A stretch of DNA of 64,000 nt from Streptomyces leeuwenhoekii (lineage in GTDB: Bacteria; Actinomycetota; Actinomycetes; Streptomycetales; Streptomycetaceae). The notes under the pieces were generated by a model. It saw nothing but the letters and a program-made list of their open reading frames with translations. It made no database searches and had not been told where the DNA came from. The stretch's first letter is position 1. Each line of letters opens with the position of its first letter. This document shows, in pieces, positions 18,658 to 40,536 of the stretch. Where the stretch lies: assembly GCF_001013905.1 (NCBI RefSeq), contig NZ_LN831790.1:62001-126000 (forward strand), written 5' to 3'. The translations under genes and the position numbers were made by a program.

Positions 18658-18823
18658 ATCCACCTCCTGGACAGGCGGTTCGCACCGCGGTCGCTGTGTG
18701 TCCATGCCGGTCTACGGCGGATGCCGTGGGCCACGCAAGGACCACAGGGGCAGTGTCGGGGCAAACTCCGGGGGACCCGCCGGTGTCACACCGGCCGACC
18801 GGCCCCGGATCGGCGCCACCGTC

Positions 18824-19590: not shown

Positions 19591-19602
19591 CGTGGCCTAC
19601 TC

Positions 19603-21995: not shown

Positions 21996-23100
21996 GTGCG
22001 GGAGAGCGGCAGTCTGGAGGCGCTGCCTGAGTCGGAGAACCGCCAGGTGCTGGAGCAGGTGATCATTCCGGCGGCCACGAGGGGAGCTGTGCGCCAGTCC
22101 CGCCCGGCGCCGTGGTTGTCGCCGGGCAACCGGGCGCAGGGAAGACCGAGATCGCCGATCTCGTTCAGGTGGCTCTGGCCCGCCGGGGCGGCGCCGTGCG
22201 GGTCTGCCGCGACCTGTACAAGGCGGCGCACCGGCGCTACCGCCGACTCCTGGCAGCCGACGTGCGGACCGCCGGGGTCGCAGTCCGCCCGGACACGGGC
22301 CGCTGGCAGGCCGCGATCGAGGATCACGTCCGCGTGCACGGGTACGACGCCGTGATCGAGTCCGCGCTCGCCGACATCGAGGAGTTCCGTGCGTCCTCGG
22401 CCGCGTACCGGGAGGCCGGCGCCCGCCTGGAGGGGCGGTGGCGACGGCGGAGGCACTGAGTCAGCTCGGGATCCTGGACGTCGGCGACGACTTCAAGGCC
22501 CAGCACCCCGACTACTTCCAGCTGCTGCGCGACGATCCCCGCAGCACCGGGGCGGCGATCCGCGCCGACTACCGCACCTGGTTCGCCCAAGCCGAGCAGC
22601 ACGTCCGTGTGTGGAGGAGCTCTTCGCCAGTGCGCTGCCGTACGCGAAGCTGACAGCCGTCTCGTCACGGCGCTGCGCTACGCCCGCGCGCTGAAGCGCG
22701 GCGGCACCGGCCGGTTCACCAGCCGCTCCGGGCACGACGCCCGCTACCGTGCGCTCGCCGAACGTCGTCGCCGTCGCCGTCGCCGAGAGCCACCCGCAGA
22801 TCGCGGCCATCACGGTGATCCGCCGAGATGGGCAGGCCCTGCTGCGCCACGAGGCCGGCGGCGCCGGGCGGGCGTGATGGGCACTCGCCGCGGAACGCTC
22901 CCGGCCGTACACCGAGCAGGAGGCGGCCGCGTTCCTCCGTCTCCACCAGGCGCTGCGCCTCGCGCTTCCGCGGCACCGGAACGAGCTGGACCAGATTGCC
23001 GCGCTCACGCGACCGCTCATGCCCGTGCGGATGCAGCCGGCCCGCATTGACCAGCCGCACCCGCACCTGTGGCCGCTGCCGGTCCCGTTCCGGGCCCCGG
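21996..23100 (+). pseudogene. Decayed zeta-toxin family gene
   Basis: Pieces of one zeta-toxin (UDP-N-acetylglucosamine kinase-like) protein are spread over several frames. They are ESENRQVLEQVIIPAATRGA near 22035, the Walker A segment VVVAGQPGAGKTEIADLV at 22112-22165, RVHGYDAVIESALADIEEF near 22335, VAESHPQIAAITVIRRDGQ near 22790, and YTEQEAAAFLRLHQALRLAL near 22912. At least three frameshifts separate them, so no full protein can be made. Order and content match streptomycete zeta toxins. Confidence 0.7.
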
Positions 23101-23653: not shown

Positions 23654-24235
23654 TCATACGCCGACCCGTGACATCAGGTCGTCCAAGGAGGGAATCCGCT
23701 CGGCCACCGGGTCCTCGGTGAAGTCACCGACCCATCCGTCGTCCTCCTCGAAGAAGCGGATGGCGCAGAAGTGCGGCACCTCTCCCATGTCGTACCAGTG
23801 CTTGGTTCCGGCCGGCACCGACAGAAGGTCTCCCGCCTCGCACACGACGGCGTACACGCGATTCTCCAGGTGCAGGTAGAAGCAGCCGCGTCCCTCGACG
23901 AAGAACCGCACCTCATCCTCACTGTGCCGGTGCTCGCTCAGGAACTTCCGTCGCGCGGCGGCGGCCTGAGCCGCCCAATCCGGGTCGTCGGTGCGGGGCT
24001 GCATCCGTGCCACGTCCACCAGCCGGAACCCGCGCTGCGCACAGAGCCGGTCGACCTGGTCCCGGTACAGGGCCAGGACCGTGTCCTGGTCCGCCGCCGC
24101 GGGAAGGAGGTGATCGGTGGGCCAGCGCCGGAACTCCACTCCGTGTGCAGCGAGTTCCGTTCCGATCCGTGCCGGGTCGGTGGTGCGCAGGAGCGTCTCC
24201 CGACCGCTGTCGGTCATGATCTGCAGGACTGTCAT
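23654..24235 (-). CDS. mtnD: Acireductone dioxygenase
   Basis: A 193-aa cupin that oxidises acireductone to 4-methylthio-2-oxobutanoate and formate, the fifth step of methionine salvage. The metal ligands are visible as EHRHSEDEVRFFVEGRG (His, His, Glu) and GTKHWYDMG (His), and the N-terminus has the family's FRRWPTDH-type start. The ATG at 24235 is preceded by GAGGAG. It follows mtnA-apt by 43 bases on the same strand and completes a pathway whose other enzymes lie on the plus strand at 29837-33252. Confidence 0.95.
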   Translation of the reverse strand: MTVLQIMTDSGRETLLRTTDPARIGTELAAHGVEFRRWPTDHLLPAAADQDTVLALYRDQVDRLCAQRGFRLVDVARMQPRTDDPDWAAQAAAARRKFLSEHRHSEDEVRFFVEGRGCFYLHLENRVYAVVCEAGDLLSVPAGTKHWYDMGEVPHFCAIRFFEEDDGWVGDFTEDPVAERIPSLDDLMSRVGV

Positions 24236-24278
24236 GGGCGAAGTCTCCTCGTGGTGTCACCTGCCGGTCTGCGGGCGG

Positions 24279-25895
24279 TCAGGCGTTCGATGGGGCGGGG
24301 AGCTGGACGGTGGCGGGGTGTGGGACGCCCACCAGGCTCGCTGCGAAGAGTTCGTGTCCGCGCAGGCGTGCGCGGCCGCCCAGCTCTGCCAGCTCGGTGA
24401 TCACCGCGAGGCCGCAGACTTCCGCCCCGCAGGCCTCGACCAGACGGATTGCGGCGTCCAGTGTTCCGCCGGTGGCGAGGACGTCGTCCACGACGAGTAC
24501 GCGCGCCCCCGGTGGTACGGCGTCCTCCTGCACCTCGAGCGAGTCGGATCCGTACTCGAGGCCGTAGTCCACCGAGAGGACGGCACCGGGCAGTTTCCCG
24601 GGCTTGCGGCCGAGCACCAGCGCGGTCCCCAGCCGCTGTGCGACGATTGCGCCGAGCGGGAATCCCCGGGCCTCCAGTGCGAGGACGAGGTCACAGCGTC
24701 CTCGGAACCGGTCCTGCACGCCTGTGGCGATGTCGCCGAGCAGCGTGTGGTCCCGGTAGACCTCTCCCAGGTCCTGGAAGGCCACCCCGGCCCTGGGGAA
24801 GTCCGGTATCTCGCGGCACCGTTCGAGCACGCGCCGGGACAGGACCGCGGGGTCGGACCTGCCCGCGGAGTACTCGTGCGCCACCTCTTGTGAAGGGGTC
24901 GGCCGCCCTCCTGGCATGACCGCCCGCTCGGTGACCACGGCGGTGACCAGGCTGTGCGGTGTGATGTCGAAGGCGGGGTTGAACACCGGGGTGCCCGCCG
25001 GGGCGACCGGCCGGCCCGCGTAGTGGGTGACCTCGTCGGCGGGGCGTTCCTCGATGGCGATGTCCCGGCCGGTGGCGGTCGAGGGATCCAGCGTCGATTC
25101 GGGGGCCACGACCACGAACGGGACGCCGGCCCTCGCCGCCGCAGCGGCGAGGGAGTAGGTACCGACCTTGTTGGCGACGTCCCCGTTGCCGGCTATCCGG
25201 TCGGCGCCGACCAGCACACAGTCCACCATCGCGTTGTCGAGAGCGGCGGGGCCCGCGGAGTCGACGCAGAGGCGGTGCGGGATGTCGGCCTCGGCCAGTT
25301 CCCACGTGGTCAGACGAGCGCCTTGGAGCAGCGGGCGGGTCTCGTCGACCAGCACTTCCTCGATCAGTCCTTCTGCGGACAGCGCGCGGACGGCGCCCAG
25401 CGCCGTCCCCCATGCCGTCGTGGCCAGGCGCCCGGTGTTGCAGTGGGTGAGCACCCGCAACGGCCGCTGCGGGCAGAGGAGTTTCACCAGATCTGCAGCG
25501 CGGCGGGCCGCCGTCCGGTTGATCTCCTCGTCCTCCCGCAGCATGGCCTCGGCCTCGAAGAGGACGGATTGGGGGCCGTCCGCGAGCCTGGACAGAGCTC
25601 GGCCGACTCCTCGGGCGAGGTTGACGGCGGTGGGCCGGGCCGCCGCGATGCGCGCCGCGTCCGCGTGCACGGAGGCCGCGTCGACGACTCCGTCGCTGGT
25701 GTGCCGTATGGCCGACATGGCGACGCCCAGGGCGCCGGCGACTCCGATGGCGGGGGCTCCGCGTATGGCAAGGCTGGTGATGGCGTCGATCAGACCGTCG
25801 ACGGTGGTGAGTCGCAGCGGCCGGTACGCGTGGGGAAGGGCGCGCTGGTCGACGGTGACGATGGTGTCGTCTTCCCAGGCCACGGAACGCTCCAT
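24279..25895 (-). CDS. mtnA: Methylthioribose-1-phosphate isomerase fused to adenine phosphoribosyltransferase
   Basis: A 538-aa fusion. Residues 1 to about 335 are MtnA, which isomerises methylthioribose-1-phosphate to methylthioribulose-1-phosphate. Visible motifs are RGAPAIG (45-51), THCNTGRLAT with catalytic Cys152, VLVGADRIAGNGDVANKVGT with Asp232, and NPAFDITP (306-313). After a linker (about 336-350), residues 351-538 are adenine phosphoribosyltransferase: REIPDFPRAGVAFQDL, LEARGFPLGAIVAQ, and the PRPP loop VLVVDDVLATGGT (466-478). The ATG at 25895 has AGGAG eight bases upstream; no stop or frameshift separates the halves. It would process both products of MTA phosphorolysis, sugar phosphate and adenine. 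Separate proteins are the norm. Confidence 0.93.
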   Translation of the reverse strand: MERSVAWEDDTIVTVDQRALPHAYRPLRLTTVDGLIDAITSLAIRGAPAIGVAGALGVAMSAIRHTSDGVVDAASVHADAARIAAARPTAVNLARGVGRALSRLADGPQSVLFEAEAMLREDEEINRTAARRAADLVKLLCPQRPLRVLTHCNTGRLATTAWGTALGAVRALSAEGLIEEVLVDETRPLLQGARLTTWELAEADIPHRLCVDSAGPAALDNAMVDCVLVGADRIAGNGDVANKVGTYSLAAAAARAGVPFVVVAPESTLDPSTATGRDIAIEERPADEVTHYAGRPVAPAGTPVFNPAFDITPHSLVTAVVTERAVMPGGRPTPSQEVAHEYSAGRSDPAVLSRRVLERCREIPDFPRAGVAFQDLGEVYRDHTLLGDIATGVQDRFRGRCDLVLALEARGFPLGAIVAQRLGTALVLGRKPGKLPGAVLSVDYGLEYGSDSLEVQEDAVPPGARVLVVDDVLATGGTLDAAIRLVEACGAEVCGLAVITELAELGGRARLRGHELFAASLVGVPHPATVQLPAPSNA

Positions 25896-25992
25896 GACTT
25901 CGTCTCCTGAAATAGGCATCAAATGCGGCTGCCCGCGGACCCCGGTCCGCTCCGCCGGTCATCACCGCGTGTTTTAGACAGGATGAGTCGCA

Positions 25993-26021
25993 ACCTTAAG
26001 AAGCCTTTTCCGAGGTGACAA
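25993..26021 (-). promoter_or_regulatory. Sigma70-type promoter for mtnA-apt/mtnD
   Basis: On the minus strand TTGTCA (26016-26021) and TAAGGT (25993-25998) are separated by 17 bases, an almost ideal vegetative promoter. Transcription would start near 25986, about 90 bases before the mtnA ATG. Confidence 0.6.
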
Positions 26022-26607
26022 GAGGGAATGGCAGGATACTTTTTTTCCCGCCATGATCGTTTTACACGGGTGCGGGCCGGGCGCGCTTACCGCCCCGAGC
26101 GCGCGAGACCGCCTCGCCCCTCTCTCACCGGCGGTTTTCCATCTTTCCATACGGAGAGCGGAATCAGGAATACTTTCGCGTAATCGGGTAGCGGGGCCAA
26201 CGGATCCGCGCATCTGCACGTCTCATTTCTTGCCTGGGCTTTTTTCGGTTACAGGATTTGCTTCCGGCCATGATCGGCGCGGGCTGAGATCACTTCCATC
26301 GCTGAGAGTGATCACTGTTGATCGACATTGCCGACCAGTCTGGGATTAAATGTCCTAAATTTTGATTTCGCATTGCGGAAGTTATCGTCCGAACGATCGG
26401 GGTAGCGGCTTCGATCCAGACGTGTCCGGTTCGGCGGTTGTGTGACAGGTGGGGGCTTTGCGTAGCTTGAATGCAACACATTCTTTCCTGCTTCCACAGT
26501 CGAGGCGGTTCCTTCTCTTCCGGGCCTCTCTGCCTCGAATCCCGTGTATTCGCATGCCATTCGACAGTGAGCGCCTCCATCCCTTGCGCAACCTCAAGGA
26601 GTAAGTC
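26022..26607. other. AT-richer divergent intergenic region of the SAM cluster
   Basis: Nearly 600 bases between the divergent mtnA-apt and speD genes, clearly less GC-rich than the genes around it. It should hold the speD promoter and possibly an operator, but I found no convincing -35/-10 pair on the plus strand. I looked for a SAM riboswitch-like set of paired helices and did not see one. Confidence 0.5.
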
Positions 26608-27021
26608 GTGTCCGTAGTCGCAGAATCCGTGGAACGGCAGACCGGTGAATACAAGGATGACGGCTACGGCCTGCGCTACGCGGGAGTGCACGTCATCATC
26701 GACCTGTGGGGAGCCCGGCGCCTCAACGACGAACAGGTTGTCACCCGCGCCATGCGGGAAGCCGTCGAGGCCTGTGGAGCCACCCTGCTGGAGCTCAAGA
26801 TCCACCGTTTCGCCCCCCAGGGCCTTACCGGCGTCGCCATCCTCAGCGAGTCCCACCTGTCCATCCACTGCTGGCCCGAGAACGGCTACGCCGCCATCGA
26901 TGTGTTCACCTGCGGTGACTCCGATCCGCGCCAGGCCATACCGATCCTGCGTGCGGCTTTCGATCCCGAACACGTGCAGGTCACCGAGCACAAGCGCGGC
27001 ATCAACGTCATGGCCGCCTGA
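26608..27021 (+). CDS. speD: S-adenosylmethionine decarboxylase proenzyme
   Basis: A 137-aa pyruvoyl-enzyme precursor that decarboxylates SAM to the aminopropyl donor S-adenosylmethioninamine. The self-cleavage region LSESHLSIH (79-87) supplies Ser82, which becomes the pyruvoyl group; His87 and Cys102 (FTCGD) complete the class 1b processing and catalytic set with the expected 5- and 20-residue spacing. The GTG at 26608 follows AAGGAG. It is the first gene of a ten-gene plus-strand run. No recognisable spermidine synthase is nearby, so the use of its product is open. Confidence 0.95.
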   Translation: MSVVAESVERQTGEYKDDGYGLRYAGVHVIIDLWGARRLNDEQVVTRAMREAVEACGATLLELKIHRFAPQGLTGVAILSESHLSIHCWPENGYAAIDVFTCGDSDPRQAIPILRAAFDPEHVQVTEHKRGINVMAA

Positions 27022-27103
27022 AACAGGCGCCCGGTCGGCCCTTCGGCCGCGCCGCCGCGCGCGCCGCTGCCCACCACCCACCGACGACACCCGGAGGTGT
27101 CCC

Positions 27104-28225
27104 ATGAGCACGATCAGGCGTGTGTCCATCCTGAAGGAGACCCGCGCGGGGGAGAAGCGGGTCATACTCCTCCCGTCCCAGGCCAAGCAGTTCGTCGACG
27201 CCGGGTACGACGTGCTGGTCGAGGCCGGGGCCGGCGAGAACACCGGCGCCCCGGACGAGGAGTACAAGAGCGCGGGAGCCCAGATCACCGGCACGGAAGA
27301 GGCATGGCGGGGAAGCGACCTGGTGTTGAAGTACAAGGCTCCCGGGCCGCATGAGTACCAGTACCTGCGGGACGGCCTGCACCTCGGAGCCTTCTTCCAC
27401 GCGGAGGGCAATCCCGGGCTCACCCGGGCGCTGCTGGACTCCGGAACCCACGCCTACGCCTACGAGTTCTTCCGCACTCCGGACGGCGTGTTCCCGCTGG
27501 CCGTGCCGGACAGTGAGATCTCCGGCAAGCTGGCGGTCCTCTTCGCCGCCTACCACCTGCAAAGCCACCTCGGCGGACGGGGCGTGCTGCTCGCGGACAT
27601 GCCGCAAGTGGCCCCGCCGCGGGTGGTGGTCATCGGATACGGCAACGCGGGAGCCGCTGCCGCCCGCACCGCACGGGCACTGGGCGCCGATGTCGTCGTC
27701 CTTGGCACCAACCGGGAACGGCTGCGCCGGTTCGAGGCCTCCCTCCCCGGCGTGACCTGTCTGCTCAACACCCCGGAGACACTGGAGCGCGAAGTGCTCC
27801 AGGCCGATCTCGTCGTGGGGGCCATCCTCATCTCCACCTACGACACCCCGGCCATGGTCGACGAGGGACTCGTCCGCCGCATGAAGCGAGGGTCGATGAT
27901 CGTCGACGTCACCGTCGGCTACGGCAGCGGCTATCTGCCGACCTTCGACCGGCAGACCACCCACGAGTCGCCCGTGTACGAACGGTTCGGCGTGCTGCAC
28001 TGCAAGATCGACGCCATGCCCGGTTCCGTGCCGTACACCGCCTCCCGCGCGGTGAGCCCGCTGATCGCGCCCTATCTCATCCGGCTCGGGGAGGCCGTCC
28101 ACACCGGTGAGCCGGACCCCACCTCTGCGGAGGGCCTGATCACCAGCGGCGGCCGGATCACCCACCAGGAGATCGAACGCCACATGCGGCAGGCAGGTGT
28201 GACGGGATCCGGCGATGACCACTGA
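27104..28225 (+). CDS. Divergent alanine dehydrogenase/transhydrogenase-family protein
   Basis: A 373-aa NAD(P)-dependent enzyme of the alanine dehydrogenase/PntA fold. It has the N-terminal SILKETRAGEKRVILLPSQA, the substrate-side DLVLKYKAPGPHEYQYLRDG, a nucleotide-binding VVVIGYGNAGAAAARTARAL, and MKRGSMIVDVTVGYGSGY. In alanine dehydrogenases the last segment reads like ID-Q-G-G with a catalytic Asp; here that position appears to be Gly272. Substrate and reaction may therefore differ: an imine reductase or opine-type role is possible. The ATG at 27104 has GGAGGTG. Its end overlaps the next gene by 11 bases. Confidence 0.8.
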   Translation: MSTIRRVSILKETRAGEKRVILLPSQAKQFVDAGYDVLVEAGAGENTGAPDEEYKSAGAQITGTEEAWRGSDLVLKYKAPGPHEYQYLRDGLHLGAFFHAEGNPGLTRALLDSGTHAYAYEFFRTPDGVFPLAVPDSEISGKLAVLFAAYHLQSHLGGRGVLLADMPQVAPPRVVVIGYGNAGAAAARTARALGADVVVLGTNRERLRRFEASLPGVTCLLNTPETLEREVLQADLVVGAILISTYDTPAMVDEGLVRRMKRGSMIVDVTVGYGSGYLPTFDRQTTHESPVYERFGVLHCKIDAMPGSVPYTASRAVSPLIAPYLIRLGEAVHTGEPDPTSAEGLITSGGRITHQEIERHMRQAGVTGSGDDH

Positions 28226-29066
28226 GGCGCTTATCTGGTTCGACCGGCCCGCCGCCGAGGCCGCGCCGTCCGTCGAGTATGCCGAGCGCGCCCGGTTCTA
28301 CGAGGTCGAGTACCGCACCGACATCGACCGTCCCTTCCTGCGTGCACTGCTCACCCCCGAGGTGGGCTCGGTCCTGGAGATCCCCTGTGGAGCCGGCCGT
28401 AACCTGGACTGGCTCGCGGTCAGCGGCCGTCAGGTCGTCTGCGCCGACATCGAGCCCGCCATGGTGGAGCGTGTGCGGGAGCGGATCACCGCCGCCGGTG
28501 CCGGCGAGCGCGTCAGCGCCGTGGTCGCCGACCTGTGCGAACTGGATCTCGGACGCAGGTTCGACCTCATCCTCGTACCGCAGGAGGCCTTCCAACTGCT
28601 CGCCGAGCCCGGCCAGGCCGAGCGCGCGCTGCACCGGCTGGCGCAGCACCTCACGGACGACGGCACTCTCCTGCTCGACCTGCACACCTTCCAAGCCGAC
28701 CGTTCCGGCGAACAGTCCCCCCTGCCGGACTACTTCGACCCGGCCATCCCGGCCGGAGAACTCACCGTCGAGTGGACCAGGCCGGTGGACGGCCATCGCT
28801 GGCTGAGCCGTGCGCGGCGGCAGTACGACGAGGGCACCGTGGTCCGTGTCGAGTACCACTACCAACTGGGCACGGGCGACCGGCTGATCCGCTCCTGGCG
28901 GTCGCGGATCCGGCTGCGCCGCCACACCCTGGGCGAGCTGCGGTCACTGGCCGCCCGCTCGGGGCTCTGCGTCACCCGGGTGGCGAGCGACTACGACGGC
29001 ACCCCCCACACCCCAGGAGCCGCACGTCTCGTCACCCTCCTACAACCCACAAACCATCCGGAGTAG
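28215..29066 (+). CDS. Class I SAM-dependent methyltransferase-fold protein
   Basis: A 283-aa Rossmann-fold protein. Motif I is LEIPCGAGRNLDWLA, followed by the acidic loop VVCADIEPAMVERV and FDLILVPQEAFQLL. The C-terminal domain is beta-rich (VVRVEYHYQLGTGDRLIRSW). The start overlaps the upstream dehydrogenase-like gene by 11 bases, so translation is coupled. A methylase is the default call. Because speD lies in the same operon, it could instead use decarboxylated SAM to transfer an aminopropyl group, or cyclise SAM as azetidine synthases do, releasing MTA; this is inference. Confidence 0.82.
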   Translation: MTTEALIWFDRPAAEAAPSVEYAERARFYEVEYRTDIDRPFLRALLTPEVGSVLEIPCGAGRNLDWLAVSGRQVVCADIEPAMVERVRERITAAGAGERVSAVVADLCELDLGRRFDLILVPQEAFQLLAEPGQAERALHRLAQHLTDDGTLLLDLHTFQADRSGEQSPLPDYFDPAIPAGELTVEWTRPVDGHRWLSRARRQYDEGTVVRVEYHYQLGTGDRLIRSWRSRIRLRRHTLGELRSLAARSGLCVTRVASDYDGTPHTPGAARLVTLLQPTNHPE

Positions 29067-29069
29067 AAC

Positions 29070-29840
29070 ATGACCCCTCCCCCGACCGTGACGGGCGGCT
29101 CCCGCCCGGCCGCCGCCACGGCCCTGGACCCCGAGGCCCTGGCCTACTTCCGGCGGTACTTCACCGAGTACTTCCGCGACGAGTTCCGGCCGGGCCAGGG
29201 CACCGAGGACATCCTCGACACCCTCGCCGGCGTGAGCCACGCCGGGGACTGGCTGGACCTCGGTGCCGGCCCCTGCACCCTCTTCTGGTCGATCCCGCTG
29301 TCCGGTGTCCGCTCCATCCGATGCGCCGACGCGGCACCCGAGGCACTCGCGGTCCTCCGCGACTTCGTCGACGGCGACGACGTCCCCCTGTGCTACCAGC
29401 AGGTCCTCGACCGTCACCGACGGGACCGCCGGCACCTGGAACGGATGCGCGCGGCGGTGGCGGACTACGCAGTCTTCGACGCGATGAAGCCCTGGCCCGA
29501 ACCGTTCGGCGGGATGCGGTTCGACCTCATCACGGAGTTCGGGCTGTTCGGCCTCTCCCCGGATCCCGACCACTACCGCGCCTGCTTCCGGCACCTGCGC
29601 GAGCGGCTCCAGGACGGTGGGACCGTGGTCGGCGCGGACTGGATCCGCAGCGCCCGGTTCATCGCCGACGAGGGACACGACAACTCCTACCTCTCCAAGC
29701 GACTCGTGGCACAGGCGACCGAGGAAGCCGGGCTGACCCTGCGCACCTGCCGGCTTTGCCCCATCCAGGGCGACGAACTCTACGACGCCCTCGTCGTGTG
29801 GTCCGCCGACAAGCCGGACGGACAGGCCGGTGAGTCATGA
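29070..29840 (+). CDS. NNMT/PNMT/TEMT-type methyltransferase
   Basis: A 256-aa protein similar in layout to the NNMT/PNMT/TEMT family of small-molecule N-methyltransferases. Features are YFRRYFTEYFRDEFRPGQGT, motif I GDWLDLGAGPCTLFWSIPLS, IRCADAAPEALAVL, and FDLITEFGLFGLSPDPDHY near the catalytic region. The ATG at 29070 is three bases after the previous stop, and its own stop overlaps the mtnB start. Family members methylate amines, so the product of the cluster may be an N-methylated amine or amino acid; the substrate cannot be read from sequence. Confidence 0.8.
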   Translation: MTPPPTVTGGSRPAAATALDPEALAYFRRYFTEYFRDEFRPGQGTEDILDTLAGVSHAGDWLDLGAGPCTLFWSIPLSGVRSIRCADAAPEALAVLRDFVDGDDVPLCYQQVLDRHRRDRRHLERMRAAVADYAVFDAMKPWPEPFGGMRFDLITEFGLFGLSPDPDHYRACFRHLRERLQDGGTVVGADWIRSARFIADEGHDNSYLSKRLVAQATEEAGLTLRTCRLCPIQGDELYDALVVWSADKPDGQAGES

Positions 29841-30538
29841 CCACCGCGCGGAACGCTCCCGCCATGGCTTCCCCCGGCGATGCCACCATCTGGCTCCGAC
29901 GGGCCCGCGAGGACATCGGCTCGGTCTGCCGCACGCTCTACCAGCGCGGATGGATGGAAGGCACATCCGGCAACGTCTCGGTGTCCGACGGCAGCGTTGC
30001 GGTGATCTCCGCCAGCGGACGCGCCAAGGGCAGGATGACCGCGCGGGACACGGTGGCGCTCCGACTCGCCGACGGCTCACCGCTGCCCGGGGAAAGCGAG
30101 CGGCCCTCGGCCGAGACCTCCATCCACCTCGCCGTGTACCGGGCCATCGGCGCAACAGCGGCCGTCATCCACGCCCACTCGCCCTACGCGACCGCGCTCT
30201 CCGCACGCCATGAGCGGCATGGAGGGACCGGCAGCGTGCTCCTCGAGAGGTGGGAGCTGGCCAAGGGCCTGGGTATGCGCGAGCCCGACCTGGTGGCCCT
30301 GCCCGTGTTCCTCAACCGTTCCGACGTCCCGCGCATCGCCCAGGAGGTGACCGAGCACTTGGAGCGAGCCGACGTCCGGACACCTCCCGCACTCCTCATC
30401 GCCCGGCACGGCCTCACCGTCTGGGGCAGGGATGTCGACCAGGCGCAGAACCGGCTGGAATGCGTCGAAGCCCTCTGCCGGCTCGCCCTGCTGACGGACG
30501 CAAACGAACGCGGCGAACAGTACGGAGAGTCCGCATGA
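29837..30538 (+). CDS. mtnB: Methylthioribulose-1-phosphate dehydratase
   Basis: A 233-aa class II aldolase-fold enzyme that dehydrates methylthioribulose-1-phosphate, the step after MtnA. Motifs are WMEGTSGNVSV, SAETSIHLAVYRA (catalytic Glu), VIHAHSPYATALS (zinc His-x-His) and IARHGLTVWGRD (third zinc His). It starts with ATGA overlapping the preceding stop and overlaps mtnC at its end, so translation is tightly coupled. Among class II aldolases, placement between mtnA and mtnC functions favours MtnB over fuculose aldolase. Confidence 0.93.
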   Translation: MTTARNAPAMASPGDATIWLRRAREDIGSVCRTLYQRGWMEGTSGNVSVSDGSVAVISASGRAKGRMTARDTVALRLADGSPLPGESERPSAETSIHLAVYRAIGATAAVIHAHSPYATALSARHERHGGTGSVLLERWELAKGLGMREPDLVALPVFLNRSDVPRIAQEVTEHLERADVRTPPALLIARHGLTVWGRDVDQAQNRLECVEALCRLALLTDANERGEQYGESA

Positions 30539-31260
30539 CCACAGCCGTCATCCTCGACGTGGAGGGCACCACGAGCGCGACCGTCCACGTGCACGACGTT
30601 CTCTTCCCCTACGCCAGGGACAGGATCGCCTCATGGGTGGCGGAGCACGGGCACGAGCCCGCAGTCCGCGCGGTCATCGAGGACGTCCACCGGATCACCG
30701 GGCACCAGTCCGCCAGTCAGGACTCCGCGGTACGCACCCTCATCGAATGGGCGGACCAGGACCGCAAGTCGGAACCCCTCAAACGCCTCCAGGGCATGAT
30801 CTGGGCCGAGGGCTATGCGCGCGGCGACATCTCCGGGCACATTTACTGGGACACCCTGCTGGCGATGGGCACCTGGTTCGAACGCGGACTGCGCGTCTTC
30901 ATCTACTCCTCGGGCTCGGTCCGCGCGCAGCGGGAGTGGTTCTCCCACAGCCAGTTCGGCGATCTGAGCCGCTGGATACACGGCTACTTCGACCTGCGCA
31001 CCGCCGGGCCGAAGGACAGCGAGGACTCCTACCGAAGGATCTGCGACACCATCGGGGTGCGGGCCTCCGACGGCGTATTCGTCTCCGACAGCATCACCGA
31101 GCTCGACGCGGCGGCGGACGCGGGACTGCGCACCGCCTGGATCGTCCGGCCGGAGGAACGGCGACGGCCGGACACCAAGGAGGGCACACGGGCGCCACGC
31201 CATCCGGCGCACCGCCATCTGCTGGCCCTCACGGAGGCGGGAGCCCTCGATGGACCGTGA
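30535..31260 (+). CDS. mtnC: Enolase-phosphatase
   Basis: A 241-aa HAD-superfamily bifunctional enzyme that enolises and dephosphorylates 2,3-diketo-5-methylthiopentyl-1-phosphate to acireductone. The N-terminal VILDVEGTTSATVHVHDVLF carries the Asp nucleophile in the family-specific DxEGT form. VFIYSSGSVRAQREWF is HAD motif II, and FVSDSITELDAAADAGLRTA is the acidic magnesium motif. Length is typical. The ATG at 30535 overlaps the mtnB stop. Confidence 0.94.
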   Translation: MTTAVILDVEGTTSATVHVHDVLFPYARDRIASWVAEHGHEPAVRAVIEDVHRITGHQSASQDSAVRTLIEWADQDRKSEPLKRLQGMIWAEGYARGDISGHIYWDTLLAMGTWFERGLRVFIYSSGSVRAQREWFSHSQFGDLSRWIHGYFDLRTAGPKDSEDSYRRICDTIGVRASDGVFVSDSITELDAAADAGLRTAWIVRPEERRRPDTKEGTRAPRHPAHRHLLALTEAGALDGP

Positions 31261-32464
31261 CCCGGGCCGGCCGCTCGGGGCCGGCCGGTTCAGCACGACC
31301 GTGTTCACCGAGCTGACCGCCCTCGCCGAACGGACCGGAGCCATCAACCTCGGGCAGGGTTTTCCCGACGAGGACGGCCCGGAGGCTGTCCTGCGGACCG
31401 CCTGTGACGCACTGGTCTCCGGGGAGAACCAGTACCCGCCGCTCGGCGGCCTGCCCGGACTCCGGGCCGCCGTCGCCCGGCAGCGGCAGCGCCGTTACGG
31501 ACTCGGCTACGACCCCGAGGACGAAATCCTGGTGACCACCGGCGCGACGGAGGCGATCACCGCGGCCGTCCTCGCGCTGTGCGGGCCCGGGGACGAGGTC
31601 ATCGTCGTCGACCCCGCCTACGACGCGTACGTCGCCGCCGTCACCCTGGCCGGCGGACGGTGCCGGCGCGTCCCGTTGCTCCGCGACGGCGGCACGGGCT
31701 TCGTACTCGACCCGGACGAACTGCAACGGGCGGTCACCCCGCGCTCGCGCCTGCTGATCCTCAACACGCCGCACAACCCGACCGGCAAGGTCTTCGACCG
31801 GACGGAGCTGTCCGGCATCGCGAGGTTCTGCGTCCGCAACGATCTCATCGCCGTGGTGGACGAGGTGTACGAGTACCTGGTCTACGACGGCGCCGGGCAC
31901 CTGCCGCCGGCGGCTCTGCCCGGCATGCGCGAACGCACACTGAGCGTGTCATCGGCCGGCAAGACCTTCAACGTCACCGGCTGGAAGGTCGGCTGGTGCT
32001 GTGGGCCGTCCGACCTGGTCGCGGCCGTACGCTCGGTCAAGCAATACCTGACCTTCGCCTCGGCCGCGCCGCTGCAACGAGCCGTGGCAGAGGCGCTGGA
32101 CACCCAGGAGGACTGGGTCACACGGTGGCGCGAAGATCTGCGTGGGCGGCGCGACCTGCTGGCCGCGGGGCTGACCGGCGCCGGGCTGCCGGTCATCACC
32201 CCGGAGGGCGGCTACTTCCTCCAGGCGGATGTCTCAGACCTCACCCGCCGGGACGCCGTGGAGTTCTGCCGGGACCTTCCGGCAGCCGCCGGCATCGTGG
32301 CCCTGCCGACCACCGCGTTCTGCGAGAAGCCCGGCGCGTACCGGTCGCTCGTGCGCTTCGCGTTCTGCAAGCGACGGGACCTGCTCGCCGAAGCCGTCAC
32401 GCGCGTGGGACACCTGCGGCGGCCGTCCCCGCCCGTCCCGTCGCAACACCTGGAGAAGACATGA
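31250..32464 (+). CDS. mtnE: Methionine-type aminotransferase of salvage
   Basis: A 404-aa PLP fold-type I aminotransferase of the kynurenine/YbdL-like branch, several members of which transaminate 4-methylthio-2-oxobutanoate to methionine. Features are INLGQGFPDEDGPEAVLRTA, NTPHNPTGKVFD, the PLP lysine in SVSSAGKTFNVTGWKVGW, ITPEGGYFLQADV, and YRSLVRFAFCKRRDLL near the C-terminus. It overlaps mtnC by 11 bases and mtnP by four. The position gives the missing last step of methionine salvage; a different amino donor or acceptor in the product pathway remains possible. Confidence 0.88.
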   Translation: MDRDPGRPLGAGRFSTTVFTELTALAERTGAINLGQGFPDEDGPEAVLRTACDALVSGENQYPPLGGLPGLRAAVARQRQRRYGLGYDPEDEILVTTGATEAITAAVLALCGPGDEVIVVDPAYDAYVAAVTLAGGRCRRVPLLRDGGTGFVLDPDELQRAVTPRSRLLILNTPHNPTGKVFDRTELSGIARFCVRNDLIAVVDEVYEYLVYDGAGHLPPAALPGMRERTLSVSSAGKTFNVTGWKVGWCCGPSDLVAAVRSVKQYLTFASAAPLQRAVAEALDTQEDWVTRWREDLRGRRDLLAAGLTGAGLPVITPEGGYFLQADVSDLTRRDAVEFCRDLPAAAGIVALPTTAFCEKPGAYRSLVRFAFCKRRDLLAEAVTRVGHLRRPSPPVPSQHLEKT

Positions 32465-33252
32465 CCGGAATCACTGCGGACATCGGCGTCATCGGGGGAT
32501 CAGGGCTCTACTCTCTCCTGGACGACGCTAGCGGCATACAACAGCCCACGCCCTACGGTCACGCCAGTGACTCCATCACCGTCGGAGAGCTGGCTGGCCG
32601 GCGCGTCGCCTTCCTGCCCCGGCACGGACGCGGCCACCGGCTCCCTCCCCACCGCGTCAACTACCGGGCCAATCTGAGCGCGTTGGACGCCCTGGGAGTG
32701 ACCCAGGTCATCGCCGTCGGCGCCGTGGGAAGCCTGACCCCCGAAATTCCCGCGGGCAGCCTGGTCGTCCCGGACCAGATCGTGGACCGTACCAGCGGAC
32801 GGGCCCAGACGTTCTTCGACGGCCCGGGTGCGGCACACGCCTCCTTCGCCGACCCCTACTGCGCCAGCGGACGAGCGATAGCTCTGCAGACGGCCCGGAC
32901 GAACGGCTGGGAAGCCGTGGACGGAGGGACCCACGTGGTCATCGAGGGACCGCGCTTCTCCACGCGGGCGGAGTCACGGTGGTACGCCGCGCAGGGCTGG
33001 TCGGTGGTCGGCATGACCGCGCATCCGGAGGCCGTCCTCGCCCGCGAACTGGGGATGTGCTGCACGCCGTTGTGCCTCGTCACCGACCTGGACGCCGGTG
33101 CGCAAAGCGGCGAGGGGGTCACCCACGAGGAAGTCCTCGCCGCGTTCGCGTCGAACCTCGAACGCCTGCGTCACCTGCTCGGCGACCTCGTCAAGGCGCT
33201 CCCCGAGGAGCGCGACTGCGACTGTGCGGCCATGAAAGCCGTGATCGTGTGA
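32461..33252 (+). CDS. mtnP: S-methyl-5'-thioadenosine phosphorylase
   Basis: A 263-aa trimeric-type nucleoside phosphorylase that splits MTA with phosphate into adenine and methylthioribose-1-phosphate. Motifs are [13 protein letters not shown] (phosphate loop), [55 protein letters not shown], and [20 protein letters not shown] (purine pocket). MTI phosphorylases are close relatives, but the fused adenine phosphoribosyltransferase in this cluster argues that adenine is released, hence MTA. It overlaps the aminotransferase stop by four bases. Confidence 0.92.
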
Positions 33253-33275
33253 GGAACGATCCCATGGGAGGGACC

Positions 33276-34484
33276 ATGCGCCCTGCTCTGTTCACCTCGG
33301 AGTCCGTGACCGAAGGTCACCCCGACAAGATCGCTGACCAGATCAGCGACACCATTCTCGACGCGCTTCTGCGCGAGGACCCGGCCTCCCGGGTCGCCGT
33401 CGAAACCCTGATCACCACCGGCCTGGTGCACGTGGCCGGCGAGGTCACGACCAAGGCGTACGCGGACATCCCGACGCTGGTCCGCGGCAAGATCCTGGAG
33501 ATCGGCTACGACTCCAGCAAGAAGGGCTTCGACGGCGCCTCCTGCGGCGTCTCGGTCTCGATCGGCGCGCAGTCGCCGGACATCGCGCAGGGCGTCGACG
33601 CGGCCTACGAGGCCCGTGTCGAGGGCGACGACGACGAGCTGGACAAGCAGGGCGCCGGTGACCAGGGCCTGATGTTCGGCTACGCCACGGACGAGACGCC
33701 GACGCTGATGCCGCTGCCGGTCTTCCTCGCCCACCGCCTGTCCAAGCGCCTGTCCGACGTGCGCAAGAACGGCACGATCCCCTACCTGCGTCCCGACGGC
33801 AAGACCCAGGTCACCATCGAGTACGACGGCGACAAGGCCGTCCGCCTCGACACGGTCGTCGTCTCCTCCCAGCACGCGAGCGACATCGACCTCGACTCGC
33901 TCCTCGCGCCCGACATCCGCGAGTTCGTCGTGGAGCCGGAGCTGAAGGCGCTGCTGGACGACGGCATCAAGCTGGACACGGAGAACTACCGCCTCCTGGT
34001 CAACCCCACCGGCCGCTTCGAGATCGGCGGCCCGATGGGCGACGCCGGCCTGACCGGCCGCAAGATCATCATCGACACCTACGGCGGCATGGCCCGCCAC
34101 GGCGGCGGCGCCTTCTCCGGCAAGGACCCGTCCAAGGTGGACCGCTCCGCCGCCTACGCCATGCGCTGGGTCGCGAAGAACGTGGTCGCCGCCGGTCTGG
34201 CCTCCCGTTGCGAGGTGCAGGTGGCGTACGCCATCGGCAAGGCCGAGCCGGTCGGCCTCTTCGTGGAGACCTTCGGCACCGCCCAGATCGATCCCGAGAA
34301 GATCGAGAAGGCGATCGACGAGGTCTTCGACCTGCGTCCGGCCGCCATCATCCGCGACCTGGACCTGCTCCGCCCGATCTACGCCCAGACCGCGGCGTAC
34401 GGCCACTTCGGCCGGGAGCTGCCCGACTTCACCTGGGAGCGCACCGACCGCGTCGACGCCCTGCGCGCCGCGGCGAGGACATGA
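33276..34484 (+). CDS. metK: S-adenosylmethionine synthetase
   Basis: A 402-aa enzyme that makes SAM from methionine and ATP, closing the recycling loop. It starts like other actinobacterial MetK proteins ([20 protein letters not shown]), which favours the ATG at 33276 with GGGAGG upstream over one at 33264. Signature regions [15 protein letters not shown] and [19 protein letters not shown] (residues about 267-285) are intact. Third-position GC is extremely high, as in housekeeping genes. A second, pathway-dedicated copy beside the chromosomal one is likely. Confidence 0.95.
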
Positions 34485-34555
34485 GCTGCCCAAGAAGACC
34501 CGGCACCCGCGAACTCGTGAAGCCCTGCCCCCTGAAGTGTGTGGAGGAAAACACC

Positions 34556-35854
34556 ATGACGATCTTGGAAAATGACGTCACAGCCCATCGGACGGCCACC
34601 GAGGAACTGGGACGGCTGTGGGCGACCGATCCGCGCTGGAAGGGAGTCACCCGCCGGCACACCCCGCAGGACGTCGTCCGACTCTCCGGAAGTGTCCGGG
34701 AGGAGCACACCCTGGCCCGGCGCGGGGCCGGGACACTGTGGCGGCTGCTGCACGACCTCGAGTACGTCCACACCCTGGGCGCGCTGACCGGTGGCCAGGC
34801 CGTACAGATGGTGCGGGCCGGTCTCCGCGCCATCTACCTCTCCGGCTGGCAGGTGGCGGCCGACGCCAACCAGGCCGGACAGACCTATCCGGACCAAAGC
34901 CTGTACCCGGCCAACTCTGTGCCCTGGGCGGTACGCCGGATCAACAACGCCCTCCTGCGGGCCGACGAGATCGCCGTCGCCGAAGGCGACCGGTCCACCG
35001 ACTGGCTGGTCCCCATCGTCGCCGACGCCGAGGCCGGCTTCGGAGGTGCGCTCAACGCCTTCGAACTGACCAAAGCAATGATCGCGGCTGGAGCGGCGGG
35101 CGTCCACTTCGAGGACCAACTGGCCTCGGAGAAGAAGTGCGGTCACCTCGGCGGGAAGGTCCTCATCCCGACCGCGCAGCACATCCGGACGCTGAGCGCC
35201 GCGCGCCTGGCCGCCGACATCGCTGGCGTCCCCACCGTCATCGTCGCGCGCACCGACGCGCTCGCCGCCGATCTGCTCACCAGCGACGTCGACGAGCGGG
35301 ACGCGCGGTTCTGTACCGGGGAGCGCACCAACGAGGGTTACCACCGGGTCAGGCCCGGCATGGCAGCCGCCATCAGCCGGGGACTCGCGTACGCGCCGTA
35401 CGCCGACCTGCTGTGGATGGAGACCTCCACGCCCGACGTGGAACAAGCCCGCGTGTTCGCCGAGGCCATCCACGCGGAGTACCCCGACAAGCTCCTCGCG
35501 TACAACTGCTCGCCCTCCTTCAACTGGCGCCGGCACCTGGACGACGCTGCGGTCGCGGCCTTCCAGAAGGAGCTGGCCGCCATGGGCTACCGCTTCCAGT
35601 TCATCACCCTCGCCGGTTTCCACTCACTCAACCACGGGATGTTCGACCTGGCGCGCGGCTACGCGAAGGAGGGCATGCCCGCCTACGTCAAGCTGCAGGA
35701 GCGCGAGTTCGAGGACCAGGAGCGCGGGTTCACTGCGGTCAAGCACCAAAGGGAGGTCGGCACCGGGTACTTCGACCTGGTGAGCGCAGCGGTCAATCCG
35801 ACGGCGGAGACTTTGGCGTTGCGCGGTTCCACCGAGGAGAGCCAGTTCGGCTGA
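34556..35854 (+). CDS. aceA: Isocitrate lyase
   Basis: A 432-aa enzyme of the ICL/PEP-mutase superfamily that cleaves isocitrate to glyoxylate and succinate. The catalytic KKCGH is at 193-197 (Cys195), with [32 protein letters not shown] and [13 protein letters not shown] as expected for true isocitrate lyase rather than methylisocitrate lyase. The ATG at 34556 has GGAGG upstream and lies 71 bases after metK. In this cluster it could supply glyoxylate to the dehydrogenase-like enzyme, for example to make glycine or an N-carboxymethyl amine; that link is inferred. Confidence 0.92.
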
Positions 35855-35864
35855 CCGGCGAGCC

Positions 35865-37088
35865 TCATCCGCGGGAAGCGGCCCGTGTCTCTTGCCCCAG
35901 CGCCTCGTCGTGCTCCGGCCGTCGCGCGGGAGGCCGGAAGACCAGGGTCACCAGTGTCACGGCCGCCGTCACGAGGAACGCGGTACGCATGCTGTAGTGG
36001 TCCGCCACCGCTCCGAGGGTGGCGGGCCCCGTCAGGGTCCCGATGCCGAGTGCCAGGACGGTGGCGCTGAAACCGGTCGACGGCTGTTCGGGAAAGACCC
36101 GGTAGCTCCACAGCGCGAGCAGCGAGGACGTGGCCATGAAAGCCGGCCCGTACAGGACGGCCGAAGCGACGACCGCGGTGAGAGCGCCGGGAGCCAGCCC
36201 CAGCAGCGCGATCGCTGCCGACAGCGCCAGGAACAGCACCGCCTGGCCGAGCCGCAGTCCCAGCCGTACGAAAAAGGCTCCGGCGAAGACACTGCTGATC
36301 CCGGCCAACCCCATGAGCGTCCAGAACAGCGGCGCCACCGGGGAGTTCTCTCCCGCCGCATCCGAGACGGCATCCAGGGCGAAGGCCCAGTAGAAGGCAC
36401 CGATGACCCCGTAGACGAACGCGGTGAGATACAGCGTCGCGGACGCCGGGCGGAGGAACCAGCGCGCCGAGACGGTCTTCCCGCCGCCGTTCCCCTTGCC
36501 CTCGTGGCGCCCGGCGGGCAGGACCCGCGCCGCGTACCAGGCCATCGCCAGGGCCACGACCGCGAACCCGAACCAGGCGTACCGCCAGTCGGCCCCCTGG
36601 GTGACCAGAGCGAGTGGCCCGGCCACGGTGACACCGAAGGCGGTACCGCTCGGGATGAGAGCCATGACCCGTTCGCGTGTGCGGTCCGGCAGCAGGCGGT
36701 CGGCGGTGTCGGAGAACGGCGCCCAGGAGAAACCCGAGGCCATTCCCGCCACCACGAGCCCCACGACGAGGACCCACGTGGTCTGGGCCACCGCCACCGT
36801 CATCATGCCGACCCCCGCCGATACTCCTGCCGCGACCACCATGGGGCGGGGACCCAGGCGCGAGACGAGCACCCCCACCAGCAGCAGCGCCACCACATAC
36901 CCGACGTAGGAAACGCTGTTGACCAGGCCGAGAACCGATGTCGAAAGTCCGAACCGGTCGCGCAGGTCGGGAAGGAACAGCCCGTACCCGTACCGGGCGA
37001 AGCCGTAGGCCACCGCTTGGGCCGCCACTCCTACTCCGCCGACCTGCCAGGCTAAACGCGACGCAGATGGTTCACATCGTCCGGTCAC
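35865..37088 (-). CDS. MFS exporter, YbfB/YjiJ-like
   Basis: A 407-aa major facilitator protein with about twelve hydrophobic segments. The loop between helices 2 and 3 reads GVLVSRLGPRPMVVAAG, the MFS motif A position. I chose the GTG at 37088 because AGGAG lies seven bases upstream; the longer frame has no ribosome site. It carries a TTA leucine codon at 37053-37055 (codon 12), a bldA target. It converges on the isocitrate lyase gene with a ten-base gap. It probably exports the product of the adjoining cluster. Confidence 0.88.
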   Translation of the reverse strand: MTGRCEPSASRLAWQVGGVGVAAQAVAYGFARYGYGLFLPDLRDRFGLSTSVLGLVNSVSYVGYVVALLLVGVLVSRLGPRPMVVAAGVSAGVGMMTVAVAQTTWVLVVGLVVAGMASGFSWAPFSDTADRLLPDRTRERVMALIPSGTAFGVTVAGPLALVTQGADWRYAWFGFAVVALAMAWYAARVLPAGRHEGKGNGGGKTVSARWFLRPASATLYLTAFVYGVIGAFYWAFALDAVSDAAGENSPVAPLFWTLMGLAGISSVFAGAFFVRLGLRLGQAVLFLALSAAIALLGLAPGALTAVVASAVLYGPAFMATSSLLALWSYRVFPEQPSTGFSATVLALGIGTLTGPATLGAVADHYSMRTAFLVTAAVTLVTLVFRPPARRPEHDEALGQETRAASRG

Positions 37089-37205
37089 GTAGTCACTCCT
37101 CGTGTTCGGTCCGATCCGGGAACGCCCGGTTATCCAGTTGGCGCCCTCGTACACCACAGCGGGCCACCCGTGTGCCGCGGTGCGGCCATGGCACACGGCC
37201 GCCCG

Positions 37206-38039
37206 TCAGCGCGGCCGGCGGAGGAAATCCAAGAGGGTGGCGGTGAGTTCGGCGGGAGCATCCTCCTGGACCAGGTGACCGGCACCGGCGATCAGCTCCA
37301 GTCGCGCGCCGGGGATCCGGGTGGCCAGCTCCCGTCCCCGCGCCACGGGGACCCAGACGTCATCCTCGCCCCAGCAGACCAGCACCGGAACGCCGATCTC
37401 GCCGTACCGGTCCTGGATCTCGTCAGTGTGGCGCTGGTCCGCCTGGTCCATCTGACGGTAGAAGGCCGCCTGACCGGACTCGTCCAACCAGGGCCGGACG
37501 AGCCGTTCCAGGACGGCGGGACGAAGACCGGCACTGCTGGCAGAGCCCACGTACGCGCGCAGCAGAGCACGGTGCAGCTCGGGCGGCAGCTGCTGGAAGA
37601 CCTCGCTGTGCCGGCCGGCGAGCCAAAAGAACGGAGAACCCCATGGGCCCAGCGCGACCGTGTCGACCAGGGCCAGCGCACGGTAGCGAGCTCCGTGCAG
37701 CAGGTGCGCCCGCAGGCAGACGGCACCACCGAAGTCGTGGGCGACCACCAGCGGCTCCTCGAGGCCCCAGTGCGCGAGCAGCTCGCTGAAGACCCGGCCC
37801 TGGCCGGCCAAAGAGACATCCTGGCCAGCCGACTTGTCCGACTGCCCGTAACCCGGCATGTCCCACACGAAGACCCGGAAGTGGCGAGCGAGCGCGTGGG
37901 CCACAGCCCGCCAGATGTACGAGGAGAAGGGAGTGCCGTGGAGAAGCACCACCGGATCCCGCCCGGGATCTCCGAGACTCCCCCAGCGGACACCACCCGA
38001 CGTACTGTGAAACGTCTCCGGCAGTTGCCATCCACTCAC
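37206..38039 (-). CDS. Alpha/beta hydrolase with Asp nucleophile motif
   Basis: A 277-aa alpha/beta-fold hydrolase. The oxyanion region is VVLLHGTPFSSYIW. The nucleophile elbow VVAHDFGGAVCLRA has Asp instead of Ser, as in epoxide hydrolases and haloalkane/haloacetate dehalogenases. VLVCWGEDDVWVPVARG supplies the acid, and IAGAGHLVQEDAP the catalytic His. The GTG at 38039 follows GAGAGGA. It lies 117 bases upstream of the exporter gene on the same strand and may belong to the same product pathway, or may be a free-standing detoxifying hydrolase. Confidence 0.85.
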   Translation of the reverse strand: MSGWQLPETFHSTSGGVRWGSLGDPGRDPVVLLHGTPFSSYIWRAVAHALARHFRVFVWDMPGYGQSDKSAGQDVSLAGQGRVFSELLAHWGLEEPLVVAHDFGGAVCLRAHLLHGARYRALALVDTVALGPWGSPFFWLAGRHSEVFQQLPPELHRALLRAYVGSASSAGLRPAVLERLVRPWLDESGQAAFYRQMDQADQRHTDEIQDRYGEIGVPVLVCWGEDDVWVPVARGRELATRIPGARLELIAGAGHLVQEDAPAELTATLLDFLRRPR

Positions 38040-40240: not shown

Positions 40241-40536
40241 CGGTCGTTCTCCTTCACGAAGAAGGCCGTCGCTTTTTTCAGGATCTCGATCGTCTGCTGC
40301 TGTTCACGGACCTCCTTGCGCAGCCGCTTGAGCTCCTCGCGCTCGGCGCTGGTCAGCTCGCCGGACCCGCCCTCGCCCCGGTCCGCCTTCGCCCAGCGGT
40401 ACCAGCCTCGCAGGGACTCGGAGCTGATGCCGAGCTCCCGGGCGACGGCGGTGACCGTTTTGCCCGAGGAATCGACGAGCGCGATCGCGTCCCGCTTGAA
40501 CTCCTCGGTGTACCGCTTCGTGTACTTGCTTCCCAC
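40237..40536 (-). CDS. IS3-family transposase OrfA
   Basis: A 99-aa helix-turn-helix protein (KRYTEEFKRDAIALVDSSGK, VARELGISSESLRGWYRWAK) ending in a leucine-zipper-like helix (ELKRLRKEVREQQQTIEILK). It binds the element ends and joins OrfB through frameshifting. It looks intact. Confidence 0.93.
   Translation of the reverse strand: MGSKYTKRYTEEFKRDAIALVDSSGKTVTAVARELGISSESLRGWYRWAKADRGEGGSGELTSAEREELKRLRKEVREQQQTIEILKKATAFFVKENDR

Follow-up and report, generated by a model that had tools for sequence, protein, structure and literature searches.

A rare Streptomyces gene cluster joining a putative S-adenosylmethionine decarboxylase to an apparently complete methylthioadenosine recycling loop

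Introduction

Among the closest described systems, ArsL is reported to transfer a 3-amino-3-carboxypropyl group and thereby to spend the C3/C4 chain of S-adenosylmethionine (SAM) (PMC8552651), and in the biosynthesis of microcin C the methyltransferase-fold protein MccD has been proposed for aminopropylation (PMC10491745). A title cited in PMC13381572 concerns decarboxylated SAM (dcSAM) in the pathway by which Bacillus subtilis makes microcin C. Here we describe a gene cluster in a 64,000-nucleotide stretch of DNA from Streptomyces leeuwenhoekii (the window; positions 62001-126000 of the 7.9-Mb contig C3 in a genome of 8.12 Mb, labeled G000) that joins SpeD, a predicted SAM decarboxylase, to genes for the recycling of methylthioadenosine (MTA). 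We are aware of very few clusters that draw on dcSAM, and not on SAM, for a specialized pathway. We see about an even chance that this rare and apparently complete cluster makes a small N-alkylated amino-acid-type product through aminopropyl transfer from dcSAM, reductive amination, and N-methylation, with a SAM-regenerating loop of its own.

Results

The cluster comprises 13 intact genes at window positions 23654-37196, as judged from open reading frames (ORFs) and scans with NCBIfam and Pfam profiles. These scans showed that complete salvage of MTA to methionine is encoded. The set includes MTA phosphorylase (MTAP; 32461-33252, plus strand; NF005876, 391.3 bits against a cut-off of 306), the methylthioribose-1-phosphate isomerase MtnA (24279-25895 or 25922, minus strand; TIGR00512, 362.7 against 279), the methylthioribulose-1-phosphate dehydratase MtnB (29837-30538, plus; TIGR03328, 161.2 against 137.05), the acireductone synthase MtnC (30535-31260, plus; TIGR01691, 207.2 against 128.1), and the acireductone dioxygenase MtnD (23654-24235, minus; PF03079, 101.6 against 27). 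MtnA is fused in a single ORF to an adenine phosphoribosyltransferase (Apt; NF002636, 178.7 against 125), which would salvage the adenine that MTAP releases. For the last step, from ketomethylthiobutyrate to methionine, there is a pyridoxal-phosphate-dependent aminotransferase (31250-32464, plus) that passed NF005855 (559.2 against 553) and fell below the cut-off of 420 for the methionine aminotransferase family NF006569 (381.8 bits); we infer that it acts as MtnE. The SAM synthetase gene metK (33264 or 33276-34484, plus; TIGR01034, 556.2 against 309.4) and speD (26608-27021, plus), for a class 1b SAM decarboxylase (AdoMetDC; TIGR03330, 135.7 against 75.65), complete the set.

Read from left to right, mtnD and mtnA-apt on the minus strand are followed by a divergent gap of 712 bases (25896-26607, read directly), which is probably a control region. 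Then come, on the plus strand, speD, a gene for an oxidoreductase resembling alanine dehydrogenase (AlaDH-like), two methyltransferase-fold genes (MT1 and MT2), mtnB, mtnC, the aminotransferase gene, the MTAP gene, metK, and the gene for isocitrate lyase (34556-35854; NF011645, 748.4 against 562). The last gene, on the minus strand, encodes a YbfB-like transporter of the major facilitator superfamily (MFS; 35865-37196; PF07690/PF06779), a probable exporter. An earlier note on this DNA had placed the complete MTA-to-SAM loop and SpeD within 11 kb. This was borne out: all of the named genes are intact ORFs, and the eight loop and SpeD genes span 10,831 bases (23654-34484), with the AlaDH-like gene, MT1, and MT2 interleaved. 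Neighboring genes share 4 or 11 bases at AlaDH/MT1, MT2/mtnB, mtnB/mtnC, mtnC/aminotransferase, and aminotransferase/MTAP; apart from the divergent region, the remaining six pairs are separated by 3 to 82 bases. In two respects the picture needs correcting: mtnD and mtnA-apt make up a unit of their own that diverges from speD, and the gene for the MFS protein lies on the opposite strand. A scan of 25800-26700 returned no sigma-70-type promoter site (0.4 expected) and one terminator-like site (1.0 expected).

The SpeD protein keeps Ser82, the processing residue, along with the catalytic residues His87 and Cys102, in the same spacing as S63, H68, and C83 of the Thermotoga maritima enzyme, which are named in PMC10407285. 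The same paper describes one Pro as diagnostic for AdoMetDC versus arginine decarboxylase, with its position shown in a figure; Pro90, in a WPE motif, is kept here as a candidate for that residue. The presence of a full MTA loop argues most strongly for a pathway that spends the C3 chain of SAM, since methylation alone yields S-adenosylhomocysteine (SAH). In its core, the idea of an accessory pathway that spends this chain and recycles MTA, put forward in the earlier note, finds support in second gene copies, co-occurrence, and trees.

MT2 was found in 3 of 295 Streptomyces genomes: G000 and two relatives, G289 and G284, both of which carry a sister cluster. The gene order in the relatives is speD-alaDH-MT1-MT2-Rieske-mtnB-mtnD-mtnC-aminotransferase-MTAP-metK-(PfkB kinase, in G284)-TetR-MFS-SARP/BTAD-type regulator-mtnA-apt, where the regulators and the kinase were assigned with Pfam in G284 and by eye in G289. 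Thus, the joint occurrence of speD, the AlaDH-like gene, MT1, MT2, and mtnA-apt, for which the earlier note had suggested a search, was found in both of the other MT2-bearing genomes. Identity of the relatives' proteins to those of the window is 74-76% for SpeD, 77-78% for the AlaDH-like enzyme, 57-59% for MT1, 63-64% for MT2, 57-60% for the MFS protein, 86-91% for MetK, and 56-60% for MtnD; the mtnA-apt fusion has counterparts of fusion length (62-63% over 518-523 residues). By a simple count, dN/dS of the four core genes was 0.17-0.54 between the window and the relatives and 0.06-0.29 between the relatives, values by which these genes are under purifying selection. A chance grouping is excluded, given that two further Streptomyces genomes share the gene set.

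Searches for additional examples returned few candidates. Of 392 Streptomyces genomes, five have a SpeD above the cut-off; this cluster accounts for three of them, and the other two (G281 and G172) hold another type of locus. At an E value of 0.001 the count was 20 of 392, that is, 15 matches weaker than the cut-off, and the three of these that were fetched (G107, G762, and G737) were also other loci. All five were therefore rejected as further examples, such that five non-cluster loci and three clusters were looked at from the 20 genomes with a match. The loci of G281 and G172 (L037/L038) are alike and, by eye, have SpeD near radical SAM-like, MFS, and amidohydrolase-like genes; this type is possibly another dcSAM pathway. 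In G107, G762, and G737 (L039-L041), the sub-cut-off homologs (48-74 bits) lie near genes that by eye are phosphopantetheinyl-transferase-like, ATP-grasp-like, or radical SAM-like. A pattern scan of genome contigs gave 77 hits that reduced to two loci, one of them that of G289, and among the matches listed in a phylum-wide search of 396 genomes (six or fewer candidates scored per genome) only the window's own cluster appeared. In the literature searched, no description of the gene set or of a dcSAM-spending Streptomyces cluster was found among the matches listed. We conclude that the cluster represents a type of specialized metabolism for which that literature yielded no description, with a complete and co-inherited SAM recycling loop.

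The region could in principle be the ordinary methionine salvage or polyamine locus of the organism, and G000 indeed yielded no mtnC, SpeD, or isocitrate lyase other than those of the cluster. Against this stand second copies of metK (C3:6590633), mtnA (C3:5002391), and MTAP (C3:4794693), the scarcity of SpeD just described, and the co-inheritance of the loop with the AlaDH-like, MT1, MT2, and MFS genes. The earlier note had named two outcomes that would refute its reading, and that reading withstood them in most respects. With metK, mtnA, and MTAP duplicated, the region is not simply a salvage locus, yet mtnC occurs only in the cluster. Salvage genes do occur without the other genes in other Streptomyces (mtnC exceeds its cut-off in 37 of 199 genomes, versus 3 of 295 with MT2), but they belong to a different lineage in the trees of mtnA, mtnB, and mtnD. 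In those trees the cluster genes group with cassettes of four other Streptomyces genomes (support of 100/100 for mtnB, 100/100 for mtnD, and 98/99 for mtnA) and fall outside the salvage loci of the common mtnA/mtnBCD kind. The trees included only mtn loci that had been fetched as loci (21 rows for mtnB, 16 for mtnA, 16 for MTAP, and 15 for mtnD) and were rooted at the midpoint only. Rows L042, L043, L045, L052, and L062, from the same genomes as L072-L075, were left out; L063 and L076, whose MTAP rows are identical, both stayed in. A long-branch warning applies to the mtnB tree. In the mtnA and mtnD trees the rows of the three clusters do not form a clade of their own, and in the MTAP tree the cluster and cassette copies were not joined with support. 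Given the second copies, the rarity, and the trees, we reject the ordinary locus as highly improbable.

The four cassettes of the cluster's mtn lineage (L072-L075, in G065, G162, G143, and G006) have surroundings of their own. Those of G065, G162, and G143 lie in similar settings that by eye resemble arsenic islands. In G065, the one genome checked for ArsL, an ArsL gene (488.9 bits against a cut-off of 450) is found approximately 11 kb from the mtnA-B-D-C-MTAP cassette. The cassette of G006 has its own metK and adjoins genes for a periplasmic-binding protein, FecCD, and a DUF364 protein of "putative heavy-metal chelation." By these sequence comparisons, MTA-recycling genes of a single lineage recur in clusters whose chemistry apparently consumes the side chain of SAM, and the shared lineage offers a practical marker with which further such clusters could be located. 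Separately, the MTAP gene of L076 (G058) lies near a gene that by eye resembles the SAM hydrolase/halogenase family, possibly part of another SAM-derived pathway.

The G006 cassette, with its metK and its neighboring uptake system and DUF364 gene, also bears on an opine-type metallophore as the product. Following the logic of nicotianamine and staphylopine, the SAM side chain would be transferred, the intermediate reductively condensed with an alpha-keto acid, and the product exported by the MFS protein; staphylopine-type pathways follow the same order of chemistry. However, none of the three clusters contains a metal-uptake gene within its bounds (the flanks were mostly read by eye), and SpeD removes the carboxylate with which such metallophores chelate. 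A specifically metallophore product, one option in the earlier note, is thus possible but finds no particular support, and we consider it improbable.

The AlaDH-like oxidoreductase (27104-28225, plus) has AlaDh_PNT domains and scores below the cut-off of the alanine dehydrogenase equivalog TIGR00518 (284.5 against 391.85). Its active site appears remodeled: two Asp residues, in the motifs VDVAIDQG and TILDIN, are Gly in all four AlaDH-like members compared (the window, G289, G284, and a trio of AlaDH-like, MT1, and MT2 genes in Lihuaxuella thermophila, of the Bacillota), and the same positions are Asp in both of the other Lihuaxuella AlaDH homologs. We take the first of these to be the catalytic Asp of alanine dehydrogenase and the second to be the Asp that contacts the NAD ribose. 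MT1 (28215-29066, plus), recognized by profile matches, is probably an amine N-methyltransferase, since its predicted model resembles N- and C-methyltransferases such as CcbJ, CypM, TylM1, and GNMT in a fold search. No known aminopropyltransferase was among the 50 entries listed in that search, which excludes nothing. MT2 (29070-29840, plus) is NNMT/PNMT/TEMT-like (PF01234, 27.3 bits against 25), has NNMT as its best match in the PDB (E value of 1e-3), and is a candidate aminopropyltransferase. The relatives' Rieske enzyme scored best in NCBIfam against the GbcA equivalog (213.1 and 209.9 bits, short of the cut-off of 670). Its nearest relatives include GbcA, a demethylase, and a carnitine oxygenase, and by sequence it resembles the quaternary-ammonium oxygenase kind.

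Several observations weigh against aminopropyl transfer from dcSAM as we propose it. Among the cluster genes, no SpeE-family aminopropyltransferase was recognized with NCBIfam or Pfam (SpeE was sought within the cluster), and neither MT1 nor MT2 matched that family. The two best PDB sequence matches of MT1, among them a bacillithiol methyltransferase, are not amine N-methyltransferases by name. Homologs of SpeD can be arginine or ornithine decarboxylases (PMC10407285). Isocitrate lyase, which the earlier note had named alongside the pathway genes, is not a conserved part: it is absent from the clusters of both G289 and G284, which have the Rieske oxygenase instead, and no close homolog of the latter was found in G000 (best match only 27% identity, E value of 2e-5); therefore, neither gene is core. 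Finally, the Lihuaxuella trio has neither speD nor mtn genes adjoining it, and therefore the trio may not need dcSAM.

In one alternative, the trio makes a betaine-like N-methylated amino acid by methyl transfer only. In such a case, SpeD would feed a spermidine synthase encoded elsewhere, or would itself be an arginine or ornithine decarboxylase, and the MTA loop would serve that flux. The trio in Lihuaxuella, the likeness of the MT1 model to N-methyltransferases, the betaine-oxygenase kind of the Rieske enzyme, and the precedent for substrate change in SpeD homologs are all consistent with this account. Yet methylation yields SAH and not MTA, and hence this account offers no reason for the complete MTA loop that accompanies the trio in three species, except if SpeD supplies a further enzyme. 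Moreover, SpeD has the catalytic residues of AdoMetDC and exceeds the cut-off of the AdoMetDC equivalog. We regard methyl transfer alone as unlikely, albeit deserving serious attention.

The Lihuaxuella locus was rejected as a second complete cluster: there is no speD beside the trio, and a SpeD gene on the same contig is approximately 110 kb away with neighbors that by eye are unrelated. After the trio, L012 3973-6099 encodes an AlkZ-like DNA glycosylase and an APH-family kinase, which perhaps provide self-protection from a DNA-damaging product. Another gene after the trio is aminoacyl-tRNA synthetase-like by eye and had no family or structure match; it was not used.

The usual fate of dcSAM is aminopropylation (PMC6302742), and SpeD is the only AdoMetDC found in G000. 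An unusual polyamine pathway would accommodate both, with SpeD and a non-SpeE aminopropyltransferase (MT2 or MT1) giving an aminopropylated, N-methylated polyamine. However, no diamine-forming gene was recognized in the cluster with NCBIfam or Pfam, a polyamine would need neither the AlaDH-like nor the Rieske enzyme, and the cluster is rare and accessory. For these reasons, we doubt that the product is a polyamine.

The cluster's metK has a history of its own. Window positions 33288-34478 match the other metK of G000 (C3:6590633-6591817, L085), presumably the housekeeping copy, with 99.1% DNA identity (11 mismatches in 1191 bp and no gaps), and the similarity ends at the ORF edges, within the first and last few codons. 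Both relatives also have a metK at this location (86-91% identical at the protein level), which suggests that gene conversion, and not a fresh insertion, produced the match; a precise replacement in recent times is a possible alternative.

The cluster starts approximately 86 kb from the start of contig C3, near the telomere genes tpg and tap, and its position is probably subtelomeric and accessory. These two genes (301.8 bits against a cut-off of 90, and 1143.5 against 600) occupy 19033-21834 on the minus strand, about 1.8 kb from the cluster. The region is flanked by an IS3-family transposase pair (39353-40536, minus) and a short zeta-toxin-like ORF (22112-22459, plus). An alpha/beta hydrolase gene (37206-38039) follows the MFS gene and has no match in the 39 kb around either relative's cluster. 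Farther to the left, 17512-18663 (minus) encodes a protein with a core domain of extracellular contractile injection systems (eCIS) and a DNA/RNA non-specific endonuclease domain, perhaps the cargo of such a system. A plasmid origin of the cluster was rejected: MT2 had no match in 72,556 plasmids, and MT1 had only two weak ones (31% and 40%).

Discussion

Our analysis points to a cluster that would carry both the supply and the recycling of an unusual SAM-derived donor. In the proposed pathway, MetK would make SAM and SpeD would decarboxylate it to dcSAM. One of the methyltransferase-fold enzymes, more likely MT2, would then use dcSAM as an aminopropyl donor to an amino-acid acceptor, releasing MTA. 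The AlaDH-like enzyme would make or join the amino-acid part through NAD(P)H-dependent reductive amination of an alpha-keto acid, which in S. leeuwenhoekii is probably glyoxylate supplied by the adjacent isocitrate lyase. The other methyltransferase-fold enzyme, more likely MT1, would N-methylate, after which the Rieske oxygenase of the relatives would oxidize the N-methylated intermediate, and the MFS protein would export the product. Meanwhile, MTAP, MtnA, MtnB, MtnC, MtnD, and the aminotransferase would return MTA to methionine, Apt would recover the adenine, and MetK would remake SAM. The aminopropyl transfer, the choice of methyltransferase-fold enzyme, the acceptor, the order of steps, the use of glyoxylate, the export, and the product are our reconstruction from gene content.

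If this is correct, aminopropyl transfer would fall to an enzyme from outside the SpeE family, MT2 (or MT1), and the AlaDH-like protein would represent a new reductive aminase. More speculatively, and here we would sooner bet against ourselves, the cluster could define a new product class: an aminopropylated, N-methylated, opine- or betaine-like amino acid, made by a hitherto undescribed NNMT-family aminopropyltransferase and an AlaDH-derived reductive aminase without the catalytic Asp, while SAM's sulfur and adenine would be recovered in full by enzymes of the cluster. The same tentative view would hold more generally that clusters consuming the side chain of SAM have repeatedly recruited a portable MTA cassette, which could serve as a hook for genome mining. 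With supply (MetK and SpeD) and waste recycling written into the cluster, a flux that is normally invisible would become readable from the genome.

Like arsinothricin-type clusters, the locus would spend the C3/C4 chain of SAM, and the G065 cassette near ArsL belongs to the same lineage; those clusters, however, rely on radical SAM chemistry and no SpeD was seen there, whereas no arsenic genes are present here. The analogy with microcin C (MccD/MccE) lies in a methyltransferase-fold enzyme proposed to place an aminopropyl group on a small molecule. MccD is set beside MT1 and MT2 here by proposed role; in our cluster, a pyruvoyl-dependent SpeD would make dcSAM, and peptide-nucleotide genes are missing. 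Staphylopine and other opine metallophores similarly combine a SAM side chain, reductive condensation, and MFS export, but in our cluster the donor would be without its carboxyl group, the reductase would have the AlaDH fold, and no uptake gene lies inside. Finally, every step of the methionine salvage pathway is encoded here by an identified family, with the role of MtnE inferred. What sets this version apart is that salvage is joined to speD, metK, the AlaDH-like gene, MT1, and MT2, that mtnA is fused to apt, and that the lineages of mtnA, mtnB, and mtnD are separate from those of the usual Streptomyces loci.

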